A DNA stretch of 64,000 bases from Natrinema amylolyticum (GTDB lineage: Archaea > Halobacteriota > Halobacteria > Halobacteriales > Natrialbaceae), in assembly GCF_020515625.1 (NCBI RefSeq), contig NZ_JAIWPJ010000003.1, forward strand, positions 496,001-560,000, written 5' to 3'. The position numbers and the translations under genes were made by a program. This document shows, piece by piece, positions 16,589-34,770 of this stretch; within the stretch, counting starts at the first letter, position 1, and each line of letters starts with the position of its first letter. Below the pieces are notes generated by a model that searched no databases, was not told where the DNA came from, and worked only from the letters and a program-made list of their open reading frames with translations.

Positions 16589-17362
16589 CTACGAGAACAT
16601 CATGTTCACTTCGATCGTGTTCGCCGTGGACAGCAACTGTGTGCGGAGGTCGTTTTCCTCCCACTCGTTCGTGAGTCGGTGTTCCGGCCCGGCGACGGTG
16701 ACCGCGCCGTAGACGGTCCCGTCGGTGTCGAGTATCGGGGCGGCGATCGCACCGATCCCCTGGATGTACTCCCCGCGGTGGTACGCGACGCCCTCCTCGC
16801 GAATCGCGGCGAGTTCGTCGAAGAGGACGTCTGGGTCGGTGATCGTCTCGTCGGTGAACGTCGGGAGCCCCCACTCGTCGATGATTTCGTTGACTCGCTC
16901 GTCCGAGAAGTGCGCGAGCATGGCTTTCCCGCCCGCCGAACTGTGAAGATAGGTGTGTGTTCCGACATCGATGTCGCTGGTAAACGAGCGAGTGCCCTCG
17001 CTGACGTTGATGATCGTTCCGAGCCCGTTCTGGTGTGTCGAACAGAGCACCCGTTCCCCCACTTGCTCCGCCAGGTCGTCGATGGGACCGTCGGACGCCG
17101 CGTACAGCGGCTCGGCGTGTTTGACGTGCTCGCCGAACGAGAGGAATCGGAGGCTCAGCCGGTATTCGTCTCCCTCCTGAACCACGTACCCCTTCGACCG
17201 CAGCGTCGTCAGGTGGGCGTGGACCGTGCTCTTCGCGAGCCCCGTCCGTTCGGTGAGCGCCGTGACGCCGGCCCCCTCGGCCTGCCACAGCGCCTCGAGG
17301 ATGTCTAACGTCTTGACCACCGCATCGATCCGCTTCCCCTCGTCCGTGTTCGATGTTGCCAT
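16589..17362 (-). CDS. IclR family transcriptional regulator
   Basis: A 257-residue DNA-binding regulator. A winged helix-turn-helix fills residues 10-75 (TLDILEALWQAEGAGVTAL, then LAKSTVHAHLTTLRSKGYV). An IclR effector domain follows from about 90 to 250, with HSSAGGKAMLAHFSDE and YIQGIGAIAAPILD. IclR proteins bind small acids or their derivatives and control adjacent catabolic genes. It is divergent from the acyl-CoA dehydrogenase at 17558 across a 195-base gap that contains two copies of GTTATRTGAC, one at each start. This suggests it controls both promoters. The ligand is unknown. Confidence 0.93.
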   Translation of the reverse strand: MATSNTDEGKRIDAVVKTLDILEALWQAEGAGVTALTERTGLAKSTVHAHLTTLRSKGYVVQEGDEYRLSLRFLSFGEHVKHAEPLYAASDGPIDDLAEQVGERVLCSTHQNGLGTIINVSEGTRSFTSDIDVGTHTYLHSSAGGKAMLAHFSDERVNEIIDEWGLPTFTDETITDPDVLFDELAAIREEGVAYHRGEYIQGIGAIAAPILDTDGTVYGAVTVAGPEHRLTNEWEENDLRTQLLSTANTIEVNMMFS

Positions 17363-17557: not shown

Positions 17558-18754
17558 ATGGACTTCAGCGAACCGTCCGAAGCCGTGCAGATCAAGAAGG
17601 CCCTCGACGACTTCATCGAGCAGGAGGTCGCGCCCCTCGAGAACGAGTACGATCAGTTCCTCGGCGCCGACTACGAGAAGGAGATCGTTGACGACGAGCA
17701 CCGCCAGGTTCCCGAGTACCGCAACATCGTCGAGCAGATCCGTCAGAAGTCGGTCGAGGCGGGCTTTTACGGCATGACGATGCCCGAAGAGGTCGGCGGC
17801 GGTGACGTCGACATCCTCACGCGGGCGATCGTCGGCGAGCACATGTCGAACCGACCGCCGGGCTTTCACAGTGCTATCTTCGGCGGTGCCGGCGGACCGA
17901 CGCCGATCCTGCTGGCCTGTGACGAGCGCCAGCGCGAGGAGTACCTCGAGCCGCTGATGGACGGCGAGATCACGACCTGCTTCGCGCTGACCGAGCCGGG
18001 CCACGGCAGCGACGCCCACTACATGGATACTCGGGCGGAGAAAGACGGCGACGAGTGGGTGATCAGCGGGCAGAAGTGTTACATCACGAACGGCCCGTAC
18101 GCCGACTTCGCGATGGTGTTCGCCCGGACGAGCGGGGAGGACGGTGATCTGGGTGGGATCACCTGCTTCCTCGTCGACAAGGACAACCCCGGCTTCGAGG
18201 TTGGAAAGATCCACCGCGCGATGGGGATGACCCCCGGGACGCACTCCGAACTGTACTTCAACGACTGCCGCGTCGGCGAAGAACAGGTGCTGGGCGAAGT
18301 CGATAAGGGCTTCCAGTCCGCGATGGACTGGATCGGCGGCGGTCGGATCAACATCGCCGCCGGCTCCGTCGGAACGGCGCAGTTCCTGCTCGATATGTCG
18401 GTCGAGTACGCCCGCGAGCGGAAGACGTTCGACAAACCGATCGGTCACCGACAGGGGATCTCGTTCCAGCTGGCCGAACTCGCGACGGACATCGAGCAGG
18501 TCCGCCAGCTCTACCGCTACGCCGCCTGGAAGATGGACGAAGGCGAGCGAGCCCGCAAGGAGGAGTCGATGGCGAAGCTCCGCGGCGCGAAACTGGCCAA
18601 CGACGCGGCCGACATCGCGATGCAGGTCCACGGCGGAGCCGGTTTCATGAAGGACCTCCCGATCGAACGCAACTATCGATCGGCTCGCGTGTTCCGGATC
18701 TTCGAGGGGACAGACGAGATCATGAAACGAACGATCGCCCGCGAACTCATCTGA
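17558..18754 (+). CDS. acyl-CoA dehydrogenase
   Basis: A 398-residue FAD enzyme that forms the trans-2-enoyl-CoA in beta-oxidation, handing electrons to ETF. CFALTEPGHGSDA is the FAD/substrate loop, QKCYITNGPYADF follows, and the C terminus FRIFEGTDEIMKRTIAREL holds the expected catalytic glutamate E383. The domain order is helical, beta, helical, and the length is normal. It is followed six bases later by an MBL-fold hydrolase and is divergent from IclR, which probably regulates it. The acyl substrate is not predictable. Confidence 0.95.
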   Translation: MDFSEPSEAVQIKKALDDFIEQEVAPLENEYDQFLGADYEKEIVDDEHRQVPEYRNIVEQIRQKSVEAGFYGMTMPEEVGGGDVDILTRAIVGEHMSNRPPGFHSAIFGGAGGPTPILLACDERQREEYLEPLMDGEITTCFALTEPGHGSDAHYMDTRAEKDGDEWVISGQKCYITNGPYADFAMVFARTSGEDGDLGGITCFLVDKDNPGFEVGKIHRAMGMTPGTHSELYFNDCRVGEEQVLGEVDKGFQSAMDWIGGGRINIAAGSVGTAQFLLDMSVEYARERKTFDKPIGHRQGISFQLAELATDIEQVRQLYRYAAWKMDEGERARKEESMAKLRGAKLANDAADIAMQVHGGAGFMKDLPIERNYRSARVFRIFEGTDEIMKRTIARELI

Positions 18755-18760
18755 TCGACG

Positions 18761-19756
18761 ATGGAGGAACAGTCGGAGCGGGGAGTCTCGGGGGAGACGG
18801 TCGTCTCGCGGATCGACTTCGACATCGAGTGGCCGCCGAAACACGCCGCGGCCTACCTCATCGAGGAGCCGGCTCCGATCCTGATCGACACCGGCGATCC
18901 GGAGGAACGCGCCGAAGCGACGATCCGCGAGGGGTTGGCCGCGAGGGGGTACGACCTCGAGGACGTCGAAGCGGTCGTCGTCACGCATCCCCACAGCGAC
19001 CACATCGGGCAGGTCCCGCTGTTGCGCGAGACCGGGGCGACGGTGTACGCCCCCCGGCCCGTGCTCGAGCAACTCGAGCGCGACGAGGCCGACCTCGCGG
19101 CGGGGGTCCGCGAGATCGGTCGCTCGGCGGAGTACCACGGCGAGGCGATCGAGCGCGAGATCGAACGCGCGAAGTCATCCCTCGAGCGCAATCGCCGTCT
19201 GCTCGCGCCCGAGGAAGCCGTTCCGTTCGAGTTCGACGAGCCGTTTACGGTCGCGGGCCGGGAGTTCGAGGCCATCCATACGCCCGGCCATCAGATCCAC
19301 CACGCCAGCCTGGCGACGGACGTAAACGGCGAGCGCGTCCTCTTCTCGGGGGACGTGCTCATCGAGTCGTTCCGGCCCGGCGCGATCCATGTCGGGCTCG
19401 ATTACGGGGCCTACGACGCCGTTGACGCGTTCCACCGCTCGATGGACCGCCTCGAGGGGCGCGCATTCGACCGCGTCTTCCCCGGCCACGGCCCGGTTTT
19501 CACCGACTACGAGGGGGCCATCGAGAGCACGCGCTCGGCTCTGGAGTCGCTCACGGCCGAGACCCTCGAGGCGGTCACCGCCGTCGGACCCGCGACGCCG
19601 CGGGAGATCACCCGGAATCGCACCGGCGAGGTCCGCCATCCGGCCCAGTTGCTCGATACGCTCGGGGCGCTGGGCACGCTCGAGGGGCGGGGCAGAGTCG
19701 AGTACGAGGACCGCGACGGCGTCCGCTACTACTCGTTTAAGAAGGCCTCGCCGTGA
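18761..19756 (+). CDS. MBL-fold metallo-hydrolase
   Basis: A 331-residue cytoplasmic metallo-beta-lactamase-fold protein. The dinuclear metal site is clear: THPHSDHIG (H76, H78, D80, H81), a third-site His in HTPGHQIHHASL, the Asp in LFSGDVLIE, and PGHGPVF. A helical C-terminal domain of about 70 residues with EITRNRTGEVRHPAQLLDTL resembles a winged-helix tail (LACTB2/glyoxalase-II-like). The six-base gap to the acyl-CoA dehydrogenase implies one transcript, so a role as an acyl-CoA or thioester hydrolase relieving CoA sequestration is plausible but inferred. Confidence 0.88.
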   Translation: MEEQSERGVSGETVVSRIDFDIEWPPKHAAAYLIEEPAPILIDTGDPEERAEATIREGLAARGYDLEDVEAVVVTHPHSDHIGQVPLLRETGATVYAPRPVLEQLERDEADLAAGVREIGRSAEYHGEAIEREIERAKSSLERNRRLLAPEEAVPFEFDEPFTVAGREFEAIHTPGHQIHHASLATDVNGERVLFSGDVLIESFRPGAIHVGLDYGAYDAVDAFHRSMDRLEGRAFDRVFPGHGPVFTDYEGAIESTRSALESLTAETLEAVTAVGPATPREITRNRTGEVRHPAQLLDTLGALGTLEGRGRVEYEDRDGVRYYSFKKASP

Positions 19757-20783: not shown

Positions 20784-22373
20784 TCAGGCCTCCCCCTCCT
20801 CGCGATCCTCGTCTCGCTCTCGGTCCTCGAGCTTGTACTTCTGGATCTTGCCGCTGGTCGTCCGCGGGAGTTCGTCGATGAACTCGACCTCGCGGGGGTG
20901 CTTGTAGGAGGCGACGTTGTCGAGGAAGAACTCCCTGATCTCCTCGCTCGTGACGTCCTCGCCGGGTTCGACGCCCGGTGCGGTGACGACGTACGCCTTC
21001 GGGACCTCGTTGCGCCGCTCGTCGGGGACGCCGACCACCGCGCCCTCCGCGACGGCCTCGTGTTCGGCCAGTAGCTCCTCGAGCTCGCTGGGGTAGACGT
21101 TGTAGCCGGCCGTGTTGATCATGTGCTTCTTCCGGTCGACGATCTCGTAGTAGTTGTCCGCGTCCCGGCGGGCGATGTCGCCGGTTCGGAACCAGTTGTC
21201 TTCCGTAAAGGCCCGCTCGGTCGCCTCGGGCATGCCGTGATACCCCTTCATCACCTGCGGCCCGCGGACGAGGAGTTCACCCTCCTCGCCGACGGCGACC
21301 GTTTCGCCGCTGCCGTCGACGATCTTGGCCTCGGTCATCCGGGTCGGCTGGCCGATCGTACCGTGGCGCAGGCCGAACGTCGAGCCGCTCTGGGAGTGGG
21401 TCGCGCCGTTGGTCTCGGTCAGGCCGTACCCCTCGGTCATGTCGACGCCGGCGGTCTCCTCGAACTCCTCCTGGACCGCGACGGACAGCTTCGCGCCGCC
21501 CTCGCCGGCCGACTCGAGGCTGGTGAGGTCGTACTCGCCGAAGCGCTCGCTGTTTATCATGTCGACGTACATCGCGGTGACGCCGACGTAGTGGGTGATC
21601 CCCTCCCCCTCGATCAGTTCCATCGCGGCGTCGCCGTCCCAGTTGGCGGCGCTTCGCAGATAGACGCTGCCGCCGCGGACGAGGGGCTGCCAGGCGGTGT
21701 GCGTGAAGCCGGTGATGTGATAGAGCGGCAGCCAGACGAGGCTCTTGACGTCCTCGTCGTCGAGCGCCTGGTCCTGAGAGAGGACCGAGAACGTCTGGGC
21801 CCGGAAGTTGCGGTGGGTCAGCTGGACGCCCTTCGGTTTCCCCGTTGTCCCCGAGGTGTAGGGCAGCAGCGCCACGTCGTCGTCAGCCCGCTCGACGAAC
21901 GTCTCCTCGCCGCGGACGTCCTCGAAGGCGCGGACGCCGTCGGCGTCGGTCCCGACCGAAATCACGACTGGGTCCCAGTCGATTTCGGCGAGGGCCTCCT
22001 CGAGGTGGGGCTCCAGCGCCTCGTGGGTGAGCACGGCGGTCGCCTCGGTGTCCTCGAGCTGGTAGGTCAACTCGCGCTTGCGGTACTGGGGGTTGACCGG
22101 CGAGACGACGACGCCGGCCTTGAACGCGCCGAGCGCGCCGATCAGGTACGGCGGACAGTTCGGCAGGTACTGGAGCATGATATCGCCCGGTTCGATCCCC
22201 AGATCGGCCAGCCCGCCGGCGAAGCGGGCGCTCTCGGCCGCGAGTTCGTCGTGGGTCAGCGTCCGCCCGTGGTACTCGATCGCCCGTGCGTCGCCGTGGT
22301 GGCGGGCGGTCTCGTCGTGGAGTCGGGCCACGTTCCCTTCCCTCGCACTCTCGGTAACGTCTACCAAATCCAT
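20784..22373 (-). CDS. AMP-forming acyl-CoA ligase
   Basis: The 529-residue enzyme starts at ATG 22373; GTG 22388 would add five residues but lies too near the TATA box. It activates a carboxylic acid with ATP to the acyl-AMP, then to the CoA thioester. The P-loop is YTSGTTGKPKG (about 172-182). EGYGLTETNG, WFRTGDIARRDADNYYEIVDRKKHMI and the C-terminal TTSGKIQKYKL with the catalytic Lys are all present. Two paralogues lie at 26623 and 42193. It is co-transcribed with the D-2-hydroxyacid dehydrogenase. Substrate unknown. Confidence 0.93.
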   Translation of the reverse strand: MDLVDVTESAREGNVARLHDETARHHGDARAIEYHGRTLTHDELAAESARFAGGLADLGIEPGDIMLQYLPNCPPYLIGALGAFKAGVVVSPVNPQYRKRELTYQLEDTEATAVLTHEALEPHLEEALAEIDWDPVVISVGTDADGVRAFEDVRGEETFVERADDDVALLPYTSGTTGKPKGVQLTHRNFRAQTFSVLSQDQALDDEDVKSLVWLPLYHITGFTHTAWQPLVRGGSVYLRSAANWDGDAAMELIEGEGITHYVGVTAMYVDMINSERFGEYDLTSLESAGEGGAKLSVAVQEEFEETAGVDMTEGYGLTETNGATHSQSGSTFGLRHGTIGQPTRMTEAKIVDGSGETVAVGEEGELLVRGPQVMKGYHGMPEATERAFTEDNWFRTGDIARRDADNYYEIVDRKKHMINTAGYNVYPSELEELLAEHEAVAEGAVVGVPDERRNEVPKAYVVTAPGVEPGEDVTSEEIREFFLDNVASYKHPREVEFIDELPRTTSGKIQKYKLEDRERDEDREEGEA

Positions 22374-22551: not shown

Positions 22552-22590
22552 ATGGTAGGATCCGACACGCGGAGGGACGCCCGTGGCTGA
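22552..22590 (+). CDS. possible 12-residue leader ORF overlapping the thiolase-like start
   Basis: ATG 22552 opens MVGSDTRRDARG and stops at TGA 22588-22590, just inside the thiolase-like gene that begins at GTG 22583 in another frame. The ATG is at the distance from the TATA-like box expected for a leaderless transcript. A GGAGGG lies inside it. Ribosomes finishing this ORF would sit on the thiolase start, so it may couple translation. Existence as a peptide is inference. Confidence 0.3.
   Translation: MVGSDTRRDARG
22571..22576 (+). promoter_or_regulatory. Shine-Dalgarno site deciding the GTG start
   Basis: GGAGGG ends seven bases before GTG 22583 and is complementary to the archaeal 16S rRNA tail. 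It supports translation from a GTG in the absence of an in-frame ATG. Confidence 0.6.
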
Positions 22591-23731
22591 ACCCATCCTC
22601 GCGGGCGTCGCCGAGAGCGACCTCGGCGAGACGCCCGACCGAAACTGGCTGGACAACGCGGCGATCGCGACCGTCCGCGCCCTCGAGGACGCCGGCTGTT
22701 CCCTCGACGACGTCGACGGCGTCGCGGTCGCCGGCGGCGACGACTACATGCCGGCGCTGGTGCTCTCGGAGTACCTCGATCTCGACGAGCCTTCGTTCCT
22801 CGAGGGGACCGAAATCGGCGGCTCGTCGTTCGAGCACTTCTGTGGCCACGTTCGCAGCGCGATGGCTCGCGACGAGGCCGACGTGGTGGTCGTCGCCTAC
22901 GGTTCCACCCGAAAGACGGGGCCAACCGACGAACGGTCGCTCGAGGAGACCCACCCGATCGACGGCTTCGTTCGGCCGACGGGGCTCTTTCGACCGCCCG
23001 GCGCGTACGCGATGGCCGCGCGTCGGCATATGCACGAGTACGGCACCACGGAGGAGCAACTCGCCGAAATCGCCGTTGCGACCCGCGAGTGGGCCGCGAT
23101 GAACCCCGAGGCCGCCCATCGAGAGCCGATCACGGTCGATGACGTCCTCGAGTCGCGGAAAATCGCGGAGCCGTTCAACCTGCTCGACTGTTGTCTCGTC
23201 TCGGACGGCGGCGGCGCGGTCGTGCTCGTGAGCGAGGAGAAGGCCGCAGAACTCGGCGTTCCGGAGATCGCCGTCGCAGGGGTCGCTTCGACGAGCACCC
23301 ATCGCCAGGACATCAGCGAGATGCCCGATATGACGACCACCGGCGCGGCGGTAACGGGACCGAAAGCCTTCGAACAAGCCGGGATTACCCACGACGACGT
23401 CGATGTCGCCGAAATTTACGACTCGTTTACCTACACCGCCCTGGTCACCCTCGAGGATCTGGGCTTCTGCGAGAAGGGCGAGGGCGGCGAGTTCGTCTCG
23501 GGCGGCACCACCGCTCCCGGCGGCGACCTCCCGATGAACACGCAGGGCGGCGGGCTCTCGTACTGCCATCCCGGCCACTTCGGCGTCTTCGTCCTCATCG
23601 AGGCCGCCCGTCAGCTTCGCGGCGACTACGAGGGCGACCGACAGGTCGACGACGCCGAGGTCGCGGTCGCCCACGGTACCGGCGGCTTACTGTCCTCGAG
23701 TAGCACCGTCGTCTTACGGAGGGAATCATGA
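22583..23731 (+). CDS. SCP2/Ltp2-like thiolase-fold protein (probable acyl-CoA aldolase or lipid-transfer type)
   Basis: A 382-residue thiolase-superfamily protein starting with GTG. At the place of the classical nucleophilic Cys it has Ser (GGSSFEHFCGH, S81-S82). The second active-site region reads GGGLSYCHPGHFG (H329), as in the SCP2-thiolase group. EIYDSFTYTALVTLEDLGF (around Y279) matches the region of Ltp2-type steroid side-chain aldolases. In that family the enzyme forms a complex with a DUF35 protein and does retro-aldol cleavage of a hydroxyacyl-CoA. The next gene here is a DUF35 protein overlapping by four bases. Function as an aldolase is inferred; plain lipid transfer or a 3-ketoacyl role remain possible. 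Confidence 0.85.
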   Translation: MAEPILAGVAESDLGETPDRNWLDNAAIATVRALEDAGCSLDDVDGVAVAGGDDYMPALVLSEYLDLDEPSFLEGTEIGGSSFEHFCGHVRSAMARDEADVVVVAYGSTRKTGPTDERSLEETHPIDGFVRPTGLFRPPGAYAMAARRHMHEYGTTEEQLAEIAVATREWAAMNPEAAHREPITVDDVLESRKIAEPFNLLDCCLVSDGGGAVVLVSEEKAAELGVPEIAVAGVASTSTHRQDISEMPDMTTTGAAVTGPKAFEQAGITHDDVDVAEIYDSFTYTALVTLEDLGFCEKGEGGEFVSGGTTAPGGDLPMNTQGGGLSYCHPGHFGVFVLIEAARQLRGDYEGDRQVDDAEVAVAHGTGGLLSSSSTVVLRRES

Positions 23732-24153
23732 GCGCACCGGTCGAGGACCGCCGCGAGGAGTGGGAGGGGCCGGTCCCCGTCCCCACCGGCGCGACGGTCC
23801 CGTTCTGGGCGGGCGCGCTCGAGGGCGAACTGCGCTATCAGGAGTGCGACTGTGGCCACCGCCAACTGTACCCGCGGGCGGTCTGTACCGCCTGCGGGTC
23901 CGAGGACCCACCCTTCGCGGCGAGCGATGGCGTCGGCACGATCTACACCTACACCGTCTGCCACGTCCCCGGCGAACCCGGCTTCGGCGATCGTACGCCC
24001 TACGTCGTCGGCGCGATCGACCTCGCCGAGGGGCCGCGCCTGCTCGCCCTGATCGACGCCGAGCCCGAGTCCCTCGAGATCGGCGCTCGCGTCGCGGTCA
24101 CCTTCTGGCGGGTCTCCGAGGCGGCCGCGATTCCGGTGTTCGTGCCGGAGTGA
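23728..24153 (+). CDS. DUF35 OB-fold/zinc-ribbon acyl-CoA-binding protein
   Basis: A 141-residue protein with an N-terminal helix, a rubredoxin-like zinc ribbon (C40, C42, C53, C56 in CDCGH...CTACG) and a C-terminal OB fold (IYTYTVCHVPGEPGFGDRTP, then VGAIDLAEGPRLLALID). DUF35 proteins are obligate partners of SCP2-type thiolases, for example in archaeal acetoacetyl-CoA thiolase/HMG-CoA synthase assemblies and in ChsH2-Ltp2, where they present the CoA substrate. The ATGA overlap with the thiolase-like gene and a GGAGGG four bases before the start show translational coupling and a likely 1:1 complex. Confidence 0.92.
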   Translation: MSAPVEDRREEWEGPVPVPTGATVPFWAGALEGELRYQECDCGHRQLYPRAVCTACGSEDPPFAASDGVGTIYTYTVCHVPGEPGFGDRTPYVVGAIDLAEGPRLLALIDAEPESLEIGARVAVTFWRVSEAAAIPVFVPE

Positions 24154-24175
24154 AGCAATCGGCGCGCGTCTCTTT

Positions 24176-25207
24176 CTACTCGAGATCGGCCGTCGCCGTC
24201 CCGGTCAGCAGCGTCTCGCCGTCGGTCGTCCGCGCCTCGAGTTCCGTTTCGACCGTGCCCGCGTTCCGATCGACCTCGGCGACTTCGCCGCTCGCTACGA
24301 CGGTGTCGCCGGGGAAGACCCGCGACTGGAACCGGACGCCGAACGACGAGACGTCCCGCAGGTCGAACCAGTTGGCGACGACGCGGGAGGTGATCCCGGC
24401 GGTGAACATCCCCTGCCCGAAGACGCTCTCGTTGCCCGCCGCCGTCGCGTAGGGCTCGTCGTAGTGGATCGGGTTGAAATCGCCGCTGGCCCCGGCGTAC
24501 TTGACGAACTGCTTTCGCTCGAGGTCTTCCGCGACGACGGTGGGGCCGGCGTCGCCGGGCTCGAGGGAGTCGGTCGTGCGGACCCGCTCGAACTCGTCGA
24601 CGGTCGGCGAGGGGGTCGCCGGCTCGGTCTCCGCAGTGCCGCCGTCGGGTTCCGTCGCGCCGTCGCTCGCGGTGCTGGCAGCGTCGCCGTCGTCCGCTCC
24701 GCTTCCGTCGCCCCCGTCGTCGACCGCGCCCTCCGTTTCGATTGCAGTCGAGCGGTCGGTCAGGACGAGGTCGCCGTCCCGGGTCCGGTACTCGGTCTCG
24801 AGGACGGCGAAGGTCATCGTCCCCGCGCGGCCGCCCTCGCGCTGGAAGACGTCCGCAAGGGTGGTCGTCCCCTCGAGGACGTCGCCGACGTAGATGGGGC
24901 GTTCGTACTCGTGGGCCTGCTCACCGTGGAGGACGTACTCCGGCCGGAACCCGAGGTCGAACCCCTTCCCGTCGACGTCGGCGGGCGTGTACCGCGGGAA
25001 CCGGCCGACCTGCGTGTAGGTCAGCGGCGCGGGGACGCGGTCGTAGCCTCGGTCCACCGCTGCGGCCTCGTTCCGGAAGACCGGATCCTCGGCCGTGATC
25101 GCCCGCGCGAACTCCTCGACCTTGCCGGGCTCGATGCGGAACTCCTCGACCGTGACTCGGGAATCGCCGACCATCGCCTCGAGGTCCGCGAGCGGCCTAG
25201 TCGGCAT
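24176..25207 (-). CDS. MaoC-like enoyl-CoA hydratase with two hot-dog domains
   Basis: A 343-residue fusion. The N-terminal half (about 15-160) is a MaoC_N/FAS1-type hot-dog domain with YTQVGRFPRY and RPIYVGDVLEGTT. A Ser/Asp/Gly/Thr-rich linker spans about 160-205. The C-terminal half (about 208-343) carries the hydratase-2 motif YAGASGDFNPIHYDEPYA with catalytic D243 and H248. It hydrates 2-enoyl-CoA to the 3R-hydroxy form. It is convergent with the thiolase-DUF35 pair, 22 bases away. In actinobacterial steroid side-chain degradation the same three folds (MaoC, DUF35, Ltp2) work together. Confidence 0.9.
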   Translation of the reverse strand: MPTRPLADLEAMVGDSRVTVEEFRIEPGKVEEFARAITAEDPVFRNEAAAVDRGYDRVPAPLTYTQVGRFPRYTPADVDGKGFDLGFRPEYVLHGEQAHEYERPIYVGDVLEGTTTLADVFQREGGRAGTMTFAVLETEYRTRDGDLVLTDRSTAIETEGAVDDGGDGSGADDGDAASTASDGATEPDGGTAETEPATPSPTVDEFERVRTTDSLEPGDAGPTVVAEDLERKQFVKYAGASGDFNPIHYDEPYATAAGNESVFGQGMFTAGITSRVVANWFDLRDVSSFGVRFQSRVFPGDTVVASGEVAEVDRNAGTVETELEARTTDGETLLTGTATADLE

Positions 25208-25650: not shown

Positions 25651-25725
25651 ATGCCAGTGACTATCACACTCGGCTCGAGAGAACGGTCAATCGAACGGAG
25701 TCGCGTCGCGGAGGGGCGTCGATGA
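25651..25725 (+). CDS. possible 24-residue leader ORF coupled to the SDR gene
   Basis: The ORF begins MPVTITLGSRERSIERSR and ends at TGA 25723-25725, overlapping the SDR ATG (25722) as ATGA. It starts near the expected transcription start set by the TATA-like box at 25616. GGAGGG at 25710-25715 lies inside it, six bases before the SDR start. The layout repeats that of 22552-22590. Composition is too short to judge; a translated leader is inferred. Confidence 0.35.
   Translation: MPVTITLGSRERSIERSRVAEGRR
25710..25715 (+). promoter_or_regulatory. Shine-Dalgarno site for the SDR gene
   Basis: GGAGGG is six bases before ATG 25722, the same arrangement as before GTG 22583, and supports the chosen start. 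Confidence 0.6.
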
Positions 25726-26495
25726 CGACCGACCAGTTCAGCGTCGCGGGTCAGACCGCGATCGTCACCGGCTCCTCGAGCGGGATCGGGAAAACGATCG
25801 TCGAGCGGTTCGCGGACGACGGCGCGAACGTCGTCGTCACCTCTCGAGAGCTAGAGAACGTCGAGCCGGTCGCCGACGCGATCAACGAGAGCGACCGGCC
25901 GGGCGAGGCCATCGCGATCGAGTGCGACGTGACGGATCGGGCGGCCGTCGAGCGCCTCGTCGACGAGACTGTCGAGACGTTCGGCGGCCTCGACATCCTG
26001 ATCAACAACGCGGGGGCGAGCTTTCAGGCTCCGCTCTCGGAGATCAGCGAGAACGGCTGGAAGACGATCGTCGACATCAATCTCCACGGCACGTTCCACT
26101 GCTCGCAGATCGCCGTCGAGCACATGCGCGAGCACGGCGGCGGGCGGATCGTCAACTTCGCTAGCGTCGCGGGAACCCGGGGCTCGAAATCGATGAGCCA
26201 CTACGGCGCGGCCAAGGCCGGCGTCGTCAACTTCACCACCTCCGCCGCGGCCGACTGGGCGGAAGACGGTATCTGGGTCAACTGCATCGCCCCCGGCCTC
26301 GTCGCGACCGAGGGCGTCCGGACCCAGATGGGCGTCGAGGACGACGCCGAGGAGATCGCCCGCACGACGCCGGACCGCACGATCGGCAAACCCGAAGAGG
26401 TCGCCGACCTCGCGCAGTTCCTCGCCAGCCCGGCCGCCTCCTACATGGTGGGCGAAACGGTCACGATCAAGGGAATCCCGCGCCTCGAGGAGTGA
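25722..26495 (+). CDS. SDR family dehydrogenase
   Basis: A 257-residue classical short-chain dehydrogenase. TGSSSGIG is at 16-23, NNAG at 95-98, and S148, Y161 and K165 (YGAAK) form the catalytic set. The C terminus AASYMVGETVTIKGIPRLEE lacks the usual VDGG ending. It probably oxidises a hydroxyacyl-CoA or alcohol intermediate with NAD(P). It precedes the CoA ligase at 26623 on the same strand with a 127-base gap containing a separate promoter. Confidence 0.9.
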   Translation: MTTDQFSVAGQTAIVTGSSSGIGKTIVERFADDGANVVVTSRELENVEPVADAINESDRPGEAIAIECDVTDRAAVERLVDETVETFGGLDILINNAGASFQAPLSEISENGWKTIVDINLHGTFHCSQIAVEHMREHGGGRIVNFASVAGTRGSKSMSHYGAAKAGVVNFTTSAAADWAEDGIWVNCIAPGLVATEGVRTQMGVEDDAEEIARTTPDRTIGKPEEVADLAQFLASPAASYMVGETVTIKGIPRLEE

Positions 26496-26585
26496 CGGCG
26501 GGGATCACGTCTCGTGCGGCCGGATCGCGCCCGAGCACGGAGCGATCCCGATTCCCCCGAAACGTGGACCCTGTTACCAGTACCC

Positions 26586-26595
26586 GTATATTTTT
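26586..26595 (+). promoter_or_regulatory. TATA box of the second CoA ligase
   Basis: GTATATTTTT is centred about 33 bases before ATG 26623 in GC-rich DNA, giving a predicted 5' leader of fewer than ten bases. Confidence 0.6.
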
Positions 26596-26622
26596 CAGCC
26601 GGAACGACAAACCACGGGCAAC

Positions 26623-28200
26623 ATGGAGCTCGATATCGTCTCCGCAGAGACCCTCTTGGAGCCGCCCTACGACGGGAACGTCGCTCGCTTGCTCGAGCGA
26701 GCGGTCGCAGAACATCCCGACGCGGTCGCCGTCGAACACGCCGGCGAGACCATCACGTATCGCGACTTGGGCGACCGCGTCGCTCGGTTCGCGACCGCTC
26801 TCCGGGAACTCGGCCTCGAGGCGGGCGACCGAGTCGGCGTCTACATGCCGAACGGAATCCCCTTCTGTACCGTTATCTGGGCCTGCTGTCGCGCCGGGAT
26901 CATCGCGAGTCCACTGAACCCCGAGTACCGCCGCCGCGAGATCGAATACCAGCTCGAGCACGCCGATGCCGAGACCGTGCTGGTTGAGGGGAGTGCCGAC
27001 GAGTACGTCCGCGAGGCCGTCGCCGACCTCGAGACCGAGATCGTCAGCGCGACGGCTGGCAGTGACCACCCCTCGCTGCCTGAACTGGGAACCGACGCCG
27101 AGGCGGCCGTTGTCGATCGCGAGGACGACGACGTGCTCCTCCAGCCCTACACCTCTGGGACGACCGGGAAACCGAAGGGCGTCCTGCTGACCCACCGCAA
27201 CTTCCGGGTCCAGATCGCACAGAGCGTCTCGAGCTACAGCGCCGGGCCGATCGAGGGTGACGGGATCATCGTCCTGCCGATGTACCACATCACGGGGATG
27301 ATCGGGATGATGGCGTCGCTCTGTGCCGGCCGGACGCTGCACCTGCTCCGGCCGGACCAGTGGGATCCCGAGCTCGTCCTCCGGAAACTCGACGAACACG
27401 ACATCCCGTCCTTCGTCGGCGTCGCCGCGATGTTCGTCGATCTGCTCGAGGCCCACGATCCCGACGAGTACGACCTGTCGACGCTGATCAAGGCAGGGCA
27501 GGGCGGGGACAAGCTCCCGAAACCGACCCAGGAGCAGTTCGAGGAGGCGTTCGACGTCCCGCTCACGGAGGGGTACGGCCTGACGGAGACGACCGCGACG
27601 AGCCACACGATCCGGTGGTCGTCGCTGGGCAACCGGCCTGGGAGCGTCGGCCAGCCGGTCGGCCACACCCGCTCGAAGGTCGTCGACGAGGACGGCGAGG
27701 AGGTCGACCCCGGCGAAGAAGGCGAGATCCTCATCGCCGGCTCGCAGGTGATGAAGGGCTACTACAAGAATCCCGAGGCCAACGAGGAAGTCTTCACCGA
27801 GGACGGCTACTTCCGGACCGGCGACATCGGCACCCGCGACGCGGACAACTACTACTACATCAAGGGCCGCGAGAAGGAGATGATCCTGACCGCGGGATAC
27901 AACGTCTATCCCCGCGAAATCGAAGATTTGCTCTACGAGCACCCGGAGATCCACGAGGCGGCGGTCTTCGGCGTTCCGGACGACCGGCGCGGCGAGACCG
28001 TCGCCGCCGCGATCGCTCCGAAAGAGGGCGCAGAACTGACCGCCGCGGACGTCGAGGCGTACGTCCTCGACGAACTCGCTCCCTACAAACACCCGCGGAT
28101 CGTCGAGATCCGGCGCGACCTCCCCAAGACGGGCAGCGGAAAGATCCGAAAGACGGTCCTGCGCGACGAATTCCTCGACGAGAACGAAATCGAATCGTGA
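26623..28200 (+). CDS. AMP-forming acyl-CoA ligase
   Basis: A 525-residue class I adenylate-forming enzyme. It has YTSGTTGKPKG (176-186), EGYGLTETTATS, YFRTGDIGTRDADNYYYIKGR and the catalytic Lys in GSGKIRKTVL. It is close in plan to long-chain acyl-CoA synthetase/4-coumarate-CoA ligase-like proteins and clearly related to the ligase at 20784. The MFS gene follows after 42 bases on the same strand, suggesting uptake and activation of the same acid. Confidence 0.93.
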   Translation: MELDIVSAETLLEPPYDGNVARLLERAVAEHPDAVAVEHAGETITYRDLGDRVARFATALRELGLEAGDRVGVYMPNGIPFCTVIWACCRAGIIASPLNPEYRRREIEYQLEHADAETVLVEGSADEYVREAVADLETEIVSATAGSDHPSLPELGTDAEAAVVDREDDDVLLQPYTSGTTGKPKGVLLTHRNFRVQIAQSVSSYSAGPIEGDGIIVLPMYHITGMIGMMASLCAGRTLHLLRPDQWDPELVLRKLDEHDIPSFVGVAAMFVDLLEAHDPDEYDLSTLIKAGQGGDKLPKPTQEQFEEAFDVPLTEGYGLTETTATSHTIRWSSLGNRPGSVGQPVGHTRSKVVDEDGEEVDPGEEGEILIAGSQVMKGYYKNPEANEEVFTEDGYFRTGDIGTRDADNYYYIKGREKEMILTAGYNVYPREIEDLLYEHPEIHEAAVFGVPDDRRGETVAAAIAPKEGAELTAADVEAYVLDELAPYKHPRIVEIRRDLPKTGSGKIRKTVLRDEFLDENEIES

Positions 28201-29668: not shown

Positions 29669-31210
29669 ATGGTAAAGTCACGCATATGGGGGGCGGCCGC
29701 TCGCGTGCGCCCGTGGCTCCCGGCGTTCGCCGTGGCGCTCGCTGCGGGACTCGCCGCCGTTGGGGGGTCGTACCTGTCCGTCGGTCGACGGCCGGCCTTC
29801 GTCGCGACGCCGATCGACCGGCTCGTCATCGCGGCCAGCCCCGACGCGCTCGTGACGTTCGCGATCACCCAGTTGGGGACGCTCGGCCACCGGGTGGCCT
29901 TTCTGACAGCCATCGCACTGACGGCCGTGCTCTTGGGGCTGGCGGCCCTGCCCGGCGCGGTGCTCCTCCAGGGTCGCGGGTCCGTCTCCGGCGCGTCGGG
30001 CGTCCGAGGCGGCGCGCTCGTCGGCGTCGCCGCCGGAACGGTCCTGCCGGGCGCAGTCGCGTTCGGACTGACGCGGTCGCCGATATCGAGCGCCGGCACC
30101 GCCGCCGGGGCCGGACTCGTCTTCCTCGTCACGGCCGGGACGACCCTCCTCGTCGGCACCGAGGACGTCGCCCTCGGTTCGCTCGGCCGGCGGCGCGTCC
30201 TCGGTGCCGTCGGCTCGGCGATCGGCGTGAGCGCGCTCGGACTCTTCGTCCGCGGCACCGGCGAGGAGACCGTCCCGTCGGGCCTCGAGATCCCCGAGGA
30301 CGCCCGACCCGAGGTTCGGGAGTCACTTGCGCGGGCGAGAGACCGCTCTCTCGACGTCGAGGGGCTCGAGCCGCTGGTCAGCACGGACTTCTACGAGGTC
30401 GACATCGCGAACGTCAACCCCGCCGTCGACCGCGAGGCGTGGACGCTCTCGATCACGGGGGCCGTCGAGGAGGAGGTGTCGTACGACGTCGCGGATGTCG
30501 AGGCCATGGACATTGAGGACCGGTTCGTCACGCTGCGCTGCGTCGGCGACCAACTCAACGGCCGGCAGATGGACACCGCCCTCTGGAGCGGTGTGCCCGT
30601 CGAGCGGCTGCTCGAGGCGGCGAACCCCCAGGGCGACCGCGTCGTCCTGCGCGGGGCCGACGACTACTACAACGAGTTCCCGATCGACGCGCTGTGGCCG
30701 GGACTGTTGGCCTACCGAATGAACGGCCGGCCGTTGCCGCGGGCCCACGGTGCGCCGGTGCGCGCCCTCGTCCCGGGTCACTGGGGCGAGATCAACGTGA
30801 AGTGGCTGACCGAGATCGAGGTTCGCGACGAGGAGACCATGGGCTACTGGGAGCACCGCGGCTGGCACGGCACCGGTCCGGTCGAGACGGTCGCCAAACT
30901 CTGGCAGGTCAACCGCCTCGGAGGCGGCCGCTACGAGGTGGCCGGGCACGCTTACGCGGGCACCAGGGGTATCGAGGGCGTCGAGGTCTCGACCGATGGC
31001 GGCGACACCTGGGTCGCCGCCGAACTGTCCGAGCCCCTGCCGGGAGACGATGTCTGGCGGCAGTGGCGTCACGAGTACGGGGCGGGCGGGAGACACGACG
31101 TGATCGTCCGGGCTCGCGACGGCGACGGCAACCTCCAGATTCCCGAGCAGGACGGCCCGAAACCCGACGGCGCTACCGGATGGGTCACGGAGACCGTCCG
31201 GCCGCAGTAA
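29669..31210 (+). CDS. membrane-anchored sulfite-oxidase-family molybdopterin oxidoreductase
   Basis: The product has 513 residues from ATG 29669; ATGs at 29636 and 29558 give Arg/Pro-rich extensions that look non-coding. The first about 200 residues contain five hydrophobic segments. After a linker comes a sulfite-oxidase-type molybdenum domain with the cofactor-ligating C291 in FVTLRCVGDQLNG. DYYNEFPIDALWPGLLAYRMNG, PGHWGEINVKWLTEIEV and a C-terminal dimerisation/Ig-like domain (GTRGIEGVEVSTDGGDTW) follow. It probably faces the outside and oxidises or reduces a small oxo substrate such as sulfite or a sulfoxide. The electron partner is unknown; no cytochrome is adjacent. Confidence 0.88.
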   Translation: MVKSRIWGAAARVRPWLPAFAVALAAGLAAVGGSYLSVGRRPAFVATPIDRLVIAASPDALVTFAITQLGTLGHRVAFLTAIALTAVLLGLAALPGAVLLQGRGSVSGASGVRGGALVGVAAGTVLPGAVAFGLTRSPISSAGTAAGAGLVFLVTAGTTLLVGTEDVALGSLGRRRVLGAVGSAIGVSALGLFVRGTGEETVPSGLEIPEDARPEVRESLARARDRSLDVEGLEPLVSTDFYEVDIANVNPAVDREAWTLSITGAVEEEVSYDVADVEAMDIEDRFVTLRCVGDQLNGRQMDTALWSGVPVERLLEAANPQGDRVVLRGADDYYNEFPIDALWPGLLAYRMNGRPLPRAHGAPVRALVPGHWGEINVKWLTEIEVRDEETMGYWEHRGWHGTGPVETVAKLWQVNRLGGGRYEVAGHAYAGTRGIEGVEVSTDGGDTWVAAELSEPLPGDDVWRQWRHEYGAGGRHDVIVRARDGDGNLQIPEQDGPKPDGATGWVTETVRPQ

Positions 31211-31383: not shown

Positions 31384-32796
31384 ATGACAAGGAATGAGTT
31401 CAACAGACGTCGGGTGCTCGCGGGTGCCGGTGCGGGACTGACCGGTGCAATAGCGGGTTGTCTGGGTGGCGGCGGCGGTGGTGACGACGAGGTTCACTTC
31501 ATCACGGACTACTACAACGACTCCTGGGAGGCCCTCTGGGGCGACCTCGAGTCGGAGTTCGAGGACGAAACCGACATCCCCATGAACATCGAGGAGGGCG
31601 GGATGTCCGGGACCCAGGAGGGTCGTCTCGCCCAGTTGATCCAGTCGGGCAATCCGCCGGACGCGAACACGTCCACGTTCGATCAGGTGGCCGACATCTG
31701 GGAGACCGGACAGCTCGACACCGTCAACGACGTCGTTTCGTCGATCGAAGAGGTGAACGGAGAGATAAACACCGACGCGTTCCTCGGCGAGGGCGACGAC
31801 CTCTATCAGATCCCACACGGGCTGTACGTGTCGAACTTCCAGTACCGGGCGGACATCTACGAACAACTGGGTCTGGAGGAACCGCAGACCTTCCAGGACG
31901 TCCTCGACAACGCCCAGGCCATCGACGAGGCGGACGAGGTGGACGCCCGTGGGTACGGGCTGGCCGGGATGCCGACCGGCAAGAGTCAAGACGAGTTCCT
32001 CGTCCTCCTGGCGAGCGCCGGTGTCCCCGGCATCGGTCTCCGCTGGAGCGACCCGGACGCCCGCGAAGAGCTCGAGATTCACTTCCCCGAGGAGGAGGTG
32101 ACGACGGTCCTGCAGTACATGAAGGACCTCTCCCAGTACTCGCCTGACCCGACAAGCATCGGCTGGGCGGAGTCACTCAGCCAGTGGCTTCAGGGCCAGT
32201 ACGCCCAGTGCTACCACCTCAACGCCTGGCCGGTCGGTCTCGCCGCGGCCCAGGCCGAGGCCCAGGACAGCGACGCCCTGCGCGGACTGGCCGAGGCCAC
32301 TCAGGTCAGGGCGTACCCGACCTGGGGCGAGATCGACAAAGACGAGAACTGGCTGTCCGCCCCGGCGCCGGACGGCTACCACGTCTTCGCGAACGGCACG
32401 AACCCGGACGGCGCCAAGGAGTGGTTCGAGTGGCTCTACGCCGACAGCATGGAGCGGACCGTGCAGTTCTACGAGGCGGATCCGGGCCGGTTCCTGCCGA
32501 CCTACGCCGACGTACTCGGGTCGGACGCGTTCCAGAACCAGGACCTCTTCCAGGCCCACCCCCACCTGCTCGAGAAGCTCGAGTACTGTCAGAACGAGAT
32601 CTGGGCCAACCACTACGGCAGCGTCGACGAGGCCGACATCTCCTCGCCCGAGTCGCTGTACATGCAACGCCAGTGGTTCTACGGCGAGATGGTCAATCGC
32701 GTCGTCACCGACTCGATGTCCGTCCAGGAGGCCTACGAGTGGGGATACGGGCAGCTCGAGGACGCCTTCGCGGACGCTCAGGAGCAGTTCGGATAG
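31384..32796 (+). CDS. ABC transporter substrate-binding lipoprotein, sugar type
   Basis: A 470-residue family 1 solute-binding protein. The N terminus RRRVLAGAGAGLTGAIAGC is a twin-arginine signal with lipobox AGC, so the folded protein is exported and lipid-anchored. A Gly-rich spacer precedes the binding lobes (VHFITDYYNDSWEAL onward). Such proteins bind mono- or oligosaccharides or glycerol phosphates. It is the first gene of a four-gene importer (31384-35856). TATA-like GTTTTATG lies at about 31333-31340. The ligand is unknown. Confidence 0.92.
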   Translation: MTRNEFNRRRVLAGAGAGLTGAIAGCLGGGGGGDDEVHFITDYYNDSWEALWGDLESEFEDETDIPMNIEEGGMSGTQEGRLAQLIQSGNPPDANTSTFDQVADIWETGQLDTVNDVVSSIEEVNGEINTDAFLGEGDDLYQIPHGLYVSNFQYRADIYEQLGLEEPQTFQDVLDNAQAIDEADEVDARGYGLAGMPTGKSQDEFLVLLASAGVPGIGLRWSDPDAREELEIHFPEEEVTTVLQYMKDLSQYSPDPTSIGWAESLSQWLQGQYAQCYHLNAWPVGLAAAQAEAQDSDALRGLAEATQVRAYPTWGEIDKDENWLSAPAPDGYHVFANGTNPDGAKEWFEWLYADSMERTVQFYEADPGRFLPTYADVLGSDAFQNQDLFQAHPHLLEKLEYCQNEIWANHYGSVDEADISSPESLYMQRQWFYGEMVNRVVTDSMSVQEAYEWGYGQLEDAFADAQEQFG

Positions 32797-32901
32797 TCGA
32801 CCCGCGACCTGTCGACACTCCTTCGGCCGCGTTCGGTGCGGAGCGGATCATTCACGAACGACCGTGAGATTAACATACATGGATGCAGAAGCAACGTAAA
32901 T

Positions 32902-33855
32902 ATGGCCAGTGAAACCGGAGAATCGATTCGACCTCGCGGGACGTATATCCCGTGGGATGAGTTGCCCGTAGAGCGGGAGACCGTCGCTGGGATCGGGACG
33001 GTTCTTCCAGTCGTCGTACTGTACCTACTCATCGCGGTGTTCCCGATCGCCTTCGCGTTCTGGGCATCGCTCCACAACATTCACACGCTCAACCCCCAGT
33101 GGGAGTGGGTCGGCCTCGCGAACTACGTCGAGGTCCTGAACATTTCGACGTTCTGGGGGTCGCTGTGGCGCGGGATCGTGTATATGGTCGGCAGCACCCT
33201 TCTCCAGCTCGCCGTCGGGCTCTGGATGGCGCTCGTCCTCAACCGCATCACTCGCGGCCAGAAGCTGCTCACCGCGGTGGTCTTCACGGCCTACCTGATT
33301 CCGACGATCATCGTCTCGCTGGTGGCGCTGCGGGTGTTCGACCCGCTCGGCGGCGTGTTCCAGATGATGGGTGCCGAGTGGTTCGGCCTGTGGGACAGCC
33401 AGACGGCCCCGTTGGGCTCGCGCGATTGGGCCATGCGGCTGCTGATCCTCATCGGGAGCTGGAAGTTCGCCGTCTTCGTCACCATCTTCACGCTCGCGCA
33501 GTTGCGCGCGATTCCTGACCGGTTCTACGAGGCGGCGAAGGTCTGCGGCGCGAACCGCTGGCAGATGTTCCGCGACATCACGCTGCCGCGTCTCATGGGG
33601 ATCGTCCTGGTCGTCGTCTTGCTCCGGTCGATCTTCATGTTCAACAAGTTCGACATCATCTGGCAGCTCACGCAGGGCGGCCCCGGTAACGCCACGACGA
33701 CGCTCCCCGTGCTGGCCTACAAGACCGTCTACACCGACCAGGCCTACGGTCTCGCCAACGCGATCTCCGTCGTCATGTTCTTGTTCCTCTTTGCAGCGGC
33801 GATCATCTACTTCAAACTCTTCAATCCCAGCGAGGAGGTGGAGACGACAACATGA
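32902..33855 (+). CDS. sugar-type ABC transporter permease, MalF-like
   Basis: The protein has 317 residues from ATG 32902 (MASETGESIRPRG); an in-frame ATG at 32836 adds residues of poor coding quality. Six membrane segments are present, and the cytoplasmic EAA loop is EAAKVCGANRWQMFRDITLP, which contacts the ATPase. The next permease overlaps its stop by four bases (ATGA), so the two subunits are made together. Confidence 0.92.
   Translation: MASETGESIRPRGTYIPWDELPVERETVAGIGTVLPVVVLYLLIAVFPIAFAFWASLHNIHTLNPQWEWVGLANYVEVLNISTFWGSLWRGIVYMVGSTLLQLAVGLWMALVLNRITRGQKLLTAVVFTAYLIPTIIVSLVALRVFDPLGGVFQMMGAEWFGLWDSQTAPLGSRDWAMRLLILIGSWKFAVFVTIFTLAQLRAIPDRFYEAAKVCGANRWQMFRDITLPRLMGIVLVVVLLRSIFMFNKFDIIWQLTQGGPGNATTTLPVLAYKTVYTDQAYGLANAISVVMFLFLFAAAIIYFKLFNPSEEVETTT
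33833..33839 (+). promoter_or_regulatory. Shine-Dalgarno site for the second permease
   Basis: GGAGGTG lies inside the end of the upstream permease gene, 12 bases before ATG 33852, and supports coupled translation. Confidence 0.5.
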
Positions 33856-34724
33856 GTCAGAGCGAACCACCGGGAGGCCTGCTGGGCCTCTCATACGACG
33901 GCGAGACTCGGGTCTTCGAAGCACTGAAGATCGTTAGCACCGCGATCATCGTCCTCGTCGGCGCCTGGCCGATCTACTGGATGACCCAGCTCGCGTTCAC
34001 CGAGTACGAGACCGTCGAGGGAGCCGTCACCGTCTTCCCCACACCCGAGATCTTCACGGTCGGTAATTTCACGGTCCTGACGGACCCGGAGATGTACACC
34101 TATATGTTCAACACGGTCGTGGTGGCCATCGGCACCATCGTCACGGTCGTCATCGTCTCGTTGGTCGCCGGCTACGGCCTCGCACGACTGGACTTCCCAC
34201 AGAAGGAGAACTTCGCGCGGATCCTCCTGCTCGGTTACCTCTTCAGCCCCATCGTCATCGGCATCCCGCTCTACCAGATCTGGCGGAGCATCGGGCTGCT
34301 CGGCACCCGTATCGGGCTCATCATCGCGCTGTCGGCGGTCTCGATGCCCTTCGCGGTGTGGCTGATGTGGAAGTACATCATGACGATCCCGGAGGCCCAC
34401 GAGGAGGCGGCGTGGGTCGACGGGGCCTCGCGCTGGCGGGGCTTCCGCGACGTCGTCGTGCCGCAGTGCCGTCCGGCGATCATCGCCGCGGCCCTGTTCG
34501 CCTTCGCACTCGCCTGGAACGACTTCACGTTCGCACAGATCCTCCTGCCCCAGACCGACACCACGACGTTCGCTCCCGGGATCCTCCGGGCGATGGGGCA
34601 GGCCCAGTTCCTGCCGGACGCCTACCTGATGGCGATCTCGCTGGCCATGACGCTGCCACCGCTGCTGTTCGCCTACTTCATGCAGAGCTACCTGCTGAAG
34701 GGGTTCCAGGTCAGGGCCCTCTGA
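33852..34724 (+). CDS. sugar-type ABC transporter permease, MalG-like
   Basis: A 290-residue membrane protein with six segments and the EAA loop HEEAAWVDGASRWRGFRDVV. A MalG-type C terminus (YLLKGFQVRAL) is present. It pairs with the MalF-like subunit to form the channel. A 46-base gap separates it from the ATPase gene. Confidence 0.92.
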   Translation: MSQSEPPGGLLGLSYDGETRVFEALKIVSTAIIVLVGAWPIYWMTQLAFTEYETVEGAVTVFPTPEIFTVGNFTVLTDPEMYTYMFNTVVVAIGTIVTVVIVSLVAGYGLARLDFPQKENFARILLLGYLFSPIVIGIPLYQIWRSIGLLGTRIGLIIALSAVSMPFAVWLMWKYIMTIPEAHEEAAWVDGASRWRGFRDVVVPQCRPAIIAAALFAFALAWNDFTFAQILLPQTDTTTFAPGILRAMGQAQFLPDAYLMAISLAMTLPPLLFAYFMQSYLLKGFQVRAL

Positions 34725-34770
34725 GATCGTGCACCACACTTACAACTACTACCACGAGATACACTAACAT

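Follow-up and report, generated by a model that had tools for sequence, protein, structure and literature searches.

Introduction

Which reaction does a thiolase-fold protein carry out when the nucleophilic cysteine of thiolases is missing from it? This question is raised by a 64,000-nucleotide stretch of DNA (hereafter the window) from the haloarchaeon Natrinema amylolyticum; the stretch is part of a 667-kb contig in a genome of 4.7 Mb. The gene in question (22583..23731, + strand, numbered within the window) starts with GTG and encodes a protein of 382 amino acids (aa), identified as a putative retro-aldolase of the PRK06158 type from its open reading frame, Pfam and NCBIfam matches, tree position and structure model. 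The next gene (23728..24153, +) encodes a 141-aa DUF35 protein consisting of a zinc ribbon and an OB fold; its ATG sits within the last codons of the thiolase-like gene, giving a 4-base overlap (ATGA). A MaoC-type hydratase of 343 aa, with an acidic linker between its two hot-dog domains, is encoded on the opposite strand and is convergent on the pair (24176..25207, −).

An original prediction, made from the sequence alone, had located the three genes and the overlap correctly. It read them as an archaeal counterpart of the steroid side-chain aldolase Ltp2, forming one module with the hydratase and acting on branched or sterol- or terpenoid-like acids. From the sequence, motifs, clade, fold and gene context described here, we infer that the pair (22583-24153) is probably a two-subunit coenzyme A (CoA)-dependent retro-aldolase. 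Neither the fold nor the pairing with DUF35 nor the type of chemistry is new. In the literature examined, retro-aldol chemistry within this fold was reported only for the Ltp2 clade (with IpfD) and the Sal clade, both of which have DUF35 partners. The novelty lies in a third clade, large and without a described function, which has an archaeal branch and an invariant, putatively catalytic residue pair of its own.

Active site of the thiolase-fold protein

The active site was examined in an alignment of 110 family members with thiolases, Ltp2 of Thermomonospora curvata (TcLtp2, 6OK1, a steroid C3 side-chain aldolase paired with ChsH2-DUF35) and Sal of Comamonas testosteroni (CtSal, 9MYR, a bile-acid C5 side-chain aldolase paired with Shy-DUF35). 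The position of the thiolase nucleophile is occupied by Gly80 (22820..22822, +), which is Gly in all 110 members and likewise in CtSal. The loss of the Cys had been noted correctly in the original prediction, but the Ser proposed in its place was one residue off; Ser as a substitute nucleophile was rejected because the aligned residue is Gly80.

Two further sites distinguish the protein. The first is the YDSF motif, with Tyr279-Asp280-Ser281 at 23417..23425 (+), and the second is His329 (23567..23569, +). Tyr279 aligns with Tyr294 of TcLtp2 and Tyr302 of CtSal, both identified as bases through mutagenesis. Ser281 aligns with TcLtp2 His296 and CtSal Cys304, and His329 aligns with TcLtp2 Tyr344 (the published acid), with CtSal Gln352 and with the His of the thiolase GHP motif. 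For CtSal the published positions of the aligned Tyr, Cys and Gln are 302, 304 and 352. The window protein thus differs from both enzymes: Ltp2 has YDHF and the acid Tyr344, Sal has YDCY with an essential Cys304 and Gln352, and neither the Tyr-Tyr pair of the former nor the Tyr-Cys pair of the latter is present. Two stretches had been called Ltp2-like. In EIYDSFTY this holds for the Tyr and Asp, which are common to YDHF, but not for the third position, which is Ser. It does not hold for GGGLSYCHPGHFG, which retains the thiolase GHP His where Ltp2 has Tyr344.

Gly80, Tyr279, Asp280, Phe282 and His329 were unchanged in all 110 members, and position 281 was Ser in 93 and Ala in 17. Judged from this alignment, Tyr279 and His329 are natural candidates for a third catalytic pair. 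The same invariance bears on a rather improbable alternative, that the protein is a catalytically dead thiolase serving with DUF35 as a CoA-binding or scaffolding subunit. The loss of both thiolase Cys residues and the Ser/Ala variation at the third motif position would fit such a role, but a scaffold would not need a Tyr and a His that are invariant across several phyla.

The cysteines also allow a genuine thiolase (retro-Claisen) reaction through another Cys to be considered. C204 is conserved in 110 and C296 in 100 of the 110 sequences, and the database name of the protein is acetyl-CoA acetyltransferase. However, the window protein has no Cys at either catalytic Cys site of thiolases; C204 and C296 lie off these sites and have counterparts in thiolases or in Ltp2/Sal, and C87 and C328, although close to the motifs, are not conserved. 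We consider this reading still less probable than that of a dead enzyme. Alignment and tree both point to an aldolase-type rather than a thiolase active site, as had been predicted.

Phylogeny and fold

The protein matched Thiolase_C_1 in Pfam (3e-62) and scored 456.4 bits with the NCBIfam model PRK06158 (NF004811; cut-off 421). A maximum-likelihood tree of 61 sequences placed it in a clade of 42 (support 100/98) with PRK06158-like bacterial proteins. Thiolases (99/97), Sal (100/99) and Ltp2 with IpfD (95/83) formed other supported groups, and the window family together with Ltp2 and Sal was split from the thiolases (99/97). In approximately unbiased (AU) tests, grouping of the haloarchaeal proteins with Ltp2 (p 0.0037), with Sal (p 0.0005) and with archaeal thiolases (p 5e-8) was rejected in each case. 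Membership of the Ltp2 or Sal groups is ruled out by these tests and by the active-site residues.

The last of these tests bears on the outcome that the original prediction had named as its own refutation, placement with the archaeal acetoacetyl-CoA thiolases. In methanogens such a thiolase (6ESQ) forms a complex with 3-hydroxy-3-methylglutaryl-CoA (HMG-CoA) synthase and DUF35, and it shares the fold and the DUF35 partnership with the window protein. It differs in its Cys nucleophile and HDCF motif, its separate clade and its link to HMG-CoA synthase. A mevalonate-pathway thiolase would also be difficult to reconcile with the distribution of the gene, which most haloarchaea lack, as do 6 of the 16 genomes sampled from its own genus, and a separate thiolase is encoded beside an HMG-CoA synthase-like gene elsewhere in the same genome. 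Tree, residues and patchy distribution rule this function out for practical purposes.

The predicted structure (predicted local distance difference test score, pLDDT, 91.3) matched 4U4E best (Z 54.3), followed by CtSal (53.3), TbSLP (52.5), TcLtp2 (52.3) and 6ESQ (51.4). 4U4E is a structural-genomics entry for a 'putative thiolase' of Sphaerobacter thermophilus, the title of which reports no function. It is about 50% identical to the window protein, shares its YDSF and HP motifs and belongs to the same clade. It differs in being bacterial, and the genes around its close relatives include SDR and DUF35 genes, not the MaoC gene of the window.

The fold family leaves room for a different reaction of the superfamily, namely decarboxylation of 3-carboxyacyl-CoA or malonyl-type CoA, or a biosynthetic aldol- or Claisen-like condensation, in which the enolate would be held by Tyr279 and His329. 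Acyl transfer (PhlC, 5M3K) and condensation (6ESQ) are also known from thiolase-fold enzymes that have a DUF35 partner, a weak malonyl-CoA decarboxylation has been published for TbSLP, and the thiolase GHP His is retained in the family. The catabolic neighbours (CoA ligases, acyl-CoA dehydrogenases, hydratase and an IclR regulator) speak against both reactions, and the tested relative CtSal showed no malonyl-CoA decarboxylation in published work. This alternative appears unlikely, although it is the strongest of those considered.

Two additional thiolase-like/DUF35 pairs were found in the same genome. One (L002, C4:134862-135995) is a Cys-less YDSF pair of the PRK08142 subfamily with orthologues in other members of the family Natrialbaceae. 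The thiolase-like protein of the other (L009, C1:1675859-1676944) is very divergent and its YDxF motif is degraded to YAPF.

The DUF35 partner

The DUF35 protein contains the Pfam domains OB_ChsH2_C and zf-ChsH2 (PF01796 and PF12172 at 2.8e-19 and 5.7e-9, both above cut-off). Its closest solved relative is the DUF35 domain of Shy from C. testosteroni (CtShy; 1e-24, as against 9e-14 for ChsH2). The zinc ribbon reads C40-x-C42-x-H44-x8-C53-x2-C56 (23845..23895, +), one residue short of the usual CxxC knuckle; it has an extra Cys together with a His, resembling the C3H1 finger of CtShy. In Shy the DUF35 domain is fused to MaoC, in contrast to the window, where DUF35 is a free protein and MaoC a separate gene on the other strand.

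A DUF35 gene lay within 2 kb of the thiolase-like gene in 73 of 85 bacterial loci of the family, in agreement with the predicted partnership. Since the surrounding block is also syntenic in haloarchaeal orthologues, the gene association is far beyond chance. The gene overlap and co-conservation suggest that the two proteins may form a physical complex.

Proposed function

In the reaction that we propose, the thiolase-fold subunit, with Gly80 instead of an acyl-accepting Cys, would be unable to form an acyl-enzyme. Like its counterparts in Ltp2 and Sal, Tyr279 of the YDxF motif would deprotonate the 3-hydroxyl group of a 3-hydroxyacyl-CoA, and the C2-C3 bond would break, the reaction running in the direction of cleavage. 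The resulting short-chain acyl-CoA enolate would then be protonated, most likely by His329. The DUF35 subunit would lie on the outer face of the dimer and shape the cleft for substrate and CoA. The expected products are acetyl-CoA or propionyl-CoA and an aldehyde or ketone.

Acids whose 3-position is closed to oxidation, such as branched or ring-attached ones, require a retro-aldol step. Steroid side chains and ibuprofen are the most familiar cases; the latter involves IpfD/IpfE, which lie in the Ltp2 clade of our tree and, like Ltp2 and the window pair, combine a missing nucleophilic Cys and a YDxF base Tyr with a DUF35 partner. The substrates of the window pair are likely to be acids that ordinary beta-oxidation cannot shorten. 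The neighbouring genes suggest that substrate could be supplied by a CoA ligase, the acyl-CoA dehydrogenase encoded at 17558 and a hydratase (the MaoC protein or another) acting in turn before the aldolase. The sterol- or terpenoid-like substrate of the original prediction found no support, as no ring-degradation, sterol or terpenoid gene was recognized among the scanned genes of the window.

Several points weigh against assignment of a retro-aldolase. The role of His329 as the acid is a guess from its alignment position. The C304S variant of CtSal is inactive, so Ser281 cannot simply replace Cys304, and this position is Ala in 17 family members. The fold does not decide between aldolase and thiolase, since the archaeal thiolase 6ESQ scores nearly as high as the aldolases. 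Most Chloroflexota loci place the pair among housekeeping genes without MaoC or an acyl-CoA dehydrogenase, and MaoC is not bound to occur with the pair: 17 genomes of the family Natrialbaceae have an orthologue of it but lack the pair. We know of no demonstrated activity for any member of the PRK06158 clade.

A broader and more tentative proposal is that the PRK06158 clade as a whole might form a third class of retro-aldolases built on the thiolase fold and marked by an invariant Tyr-His pair. It would be widespread in SAR202 Chloroflexota, Rokubacteria and Proteobacteria, would have been picked up by one haloarchaeal family, and would cleave tertiary or otherwise beta-oxidation-resistant 3-hydroxyacyl-CoAs (isoprenoid, alicyclic) under the mistaken name of acetyl-CoA acetyltransferase. 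We regard this as possible, but doubtful in its full extent. If true, such an enzyme would let these organisms circumvent a block in beta-oxidation, and the window pair would be, to our knowledge, the first archaeal retro-aldolase of this thiolase-fold type. SAR202 bacteria are thought to oxidize resistant marine organic matter. The third clade yields a testable prediction for hundreds of proteins now labelled acetyl-CoA acetyltransferase, many of them in SAR202. A literature search, which left most subscription journals uncovered, found PRK06158 named nowhere and nothing relevant on haloarchaeal steroid degradation or retro-aldol acyl-CoA chemistry; thiolases were not mentioned in the SAR202 literature examined.

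Associated acyl-CoA dehydrogenase and hydratase

The acyl-CoA dehydrogenase (ACAD) encoded at 17558..18754 (+) belongs to the subfamily of ACADs that directly adjoin the pair in Comamonadaceae, an Alphaproteobacterium and Dictyobacter. These bacterial ACADs were 36-41% identical to it (229-301 bits), as against 63-195 bits for the other ACADs of the same loci. When pair-side ACADs were in turn searched against the 24 ACADs encoded in the genome that contains the window, that of Dictyobacter gave 17558 as its top match, and that of Polaromonas matched 17558 and a 60%-identical paralogue about equally. A divergent haloarchaeal locus without MaoC (L124) also has an ACAD, 70% identical to 17558, directly adjoining the pair. 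ACAD 17558 is therefore a partner common to the window and to bacteria. It was not upheld as an exclusive partner, because it is also found without the pair.

The MaoC protein matched FAS1_DH_region and MaoC_dehydratas in Pfam, and its structure was modelled at pLDDT 64. The hydratase His/Asp dyad (D243xNPxH248) is confined to the C-terminal domain, where it is invariant in 23 orthologues, and none is present in the N-terminal domain. The actinobacterial double-MaoC steroid hydratases ChsH3, CasD and CasQ are likewise built of two MaoC domains per chain with the dyad in one domain and no attached DUF35. This likeness is one of layout, and the closest NCBIfam model is fused HadA/HadB, with a score below cut-off. 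In ChsH1-ChsH2 and the double-MaoC steroid hydratases the inert domain gives room to a bulky substrate; by analogy, the one-dyad layout hints at a bulky acyl group, though not specifically at a sterol.

ACAD and MaoC genes also lie near the pair in Ltp2 steroid clusters, as they do in the window. The MaoC gene adjoined the pair in 10 of 12 haloarchaeal loci fetched. Bacterial loci varied by group: a MaoC gene was present within 5.5 kb of the pair in 13 of the 23 from Pseudomonadota and in 4 of the 5 from plasmids, but only 3 of the 47 from Chloroflexota had one. Dictyobacter, an Alphaproteobacterium, the Achromobacter plasmid pA82 and Nitratireductor provide examples. In most of the 11 pair-less loci fetched, a canonical thiolase and an ACAD of the 37090 type adjoin MaoC, often with 3-hydroxyacyl-CoA dehydrogenase genes. 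MaoC therefore belongs first to the thiolase/ACAD core of beta-oxidation and may serve both branches. Two hot-dog domains and a place next to the pair had been described correctly, but the hydratase gene is on the opposite strand and so is not in one operon with the pair, and its occurrence in pair-less genomes weakens the idea of a tight three-gene module.

Distribution and origin

More than 580 stretches encoding relatives were found in a collection scan, and 80 were kept. Most of these belonged to Chloroflexota (SAR202 and other Dehalococcoidia), Rokubacteria and Proteobacteria. Among the haloarchaea, 292 genomes of the class were sampled; 18 had a clear orthologue, and these 18 belong to five genera of a single family. 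A 93%-identical orthologue is carried on a 465-kb plasmid of Halostagnicola larsenii (Natrialbaceae). With its occurrence in one family and its gaps within the window's genus, the distribution looks like that of an accessory catabolic gene pair.

The family is mostly bacterial, and the window protein represents a patchily distributed haloarchaeal branch of it and no archaeal invention; the pair was probably acquired from bacteria. The branching order close to the haloarchaea was not firmly resolved in the tree. A haloarchaeal origin is not favoured, although a single clade uniting the two haloarchaeal YDSF groups was compatible with the AU test (p 0.36). Of the original prediction, the aldolase-type site, the DUF35 partner and a role outside the mevalonate pathway have held. 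The archaeal counterpart of Ltp2 has not, as the protein falls outside that clade and neither Ltp2 nor Sal has a His at the position of its His329; ACAD 17558 was not named there.

In many SAR202/Dehalococcoidia genomes (L039-L081) the pair stands amid housekeeping genes and not in a catabolic cluster, and contig CATOSP010000002.1 of this set carries two copies of it. An orthologue from the window's genus (L144/L145, G210 C48:93679-94814) is split in two frames by an apparent frameshift, either an assembly error or a pseudogene.

Other features of the locus

An IclR-type regulator (16589..17362, −) marks the edge of the conserved block. An MBL-fold hydrolase (18761..19756, +) is encoded downstream of ACAD 17558, and an AMP-forming acyl-CoA ligase (20784..22373, −) is transcribed divergently from the aldolase gene. 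In most orthologous loci, synteny with the pair extends to an SDR oxidoreductase and a second AMP-forming acyl-CoA ligase (25722..28200, +). The order IclR, ACAD, MBL, CoA ligase, aldolase, DUF35, MaoC, SDR, CoA ligase and MFS transporter is largely retained at orthologous loci in the window's genus. In other haloarchaeal genera the block is reduced to MaoC, CoA ligase, MFS and 3-hydroxyacyl-CoA dehydrogenase.

A sulfite-oxidase-like molybdopterin oxidoreductase (29705-31210, +) lies within the conserved block in several haloarchaea. A carbohydrate-type ABC importer (binding protein, two permeases and an ATPase; 31414-35856, +) is close to the aldolase cluster in most orthologous loci, even in genera in which identity between the transporter genes falls to about 60%, and its substrate could hint at the pathway. 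The acyl-CoA gene island also contains a relative of R2-like ligand-binding oxidases (45168-46100, −; best solved matches R2lox-type, 2e-24), homologues of which adjoin MaoC in two other loci (L152 and L154) and the ACAD-aldolase pair in Dictyobacter (L074). An anthranilate phosphoribosyltransferase-like protein (48639-49706, −), out of place for a catabolic cluster, is encoded where the island ends.

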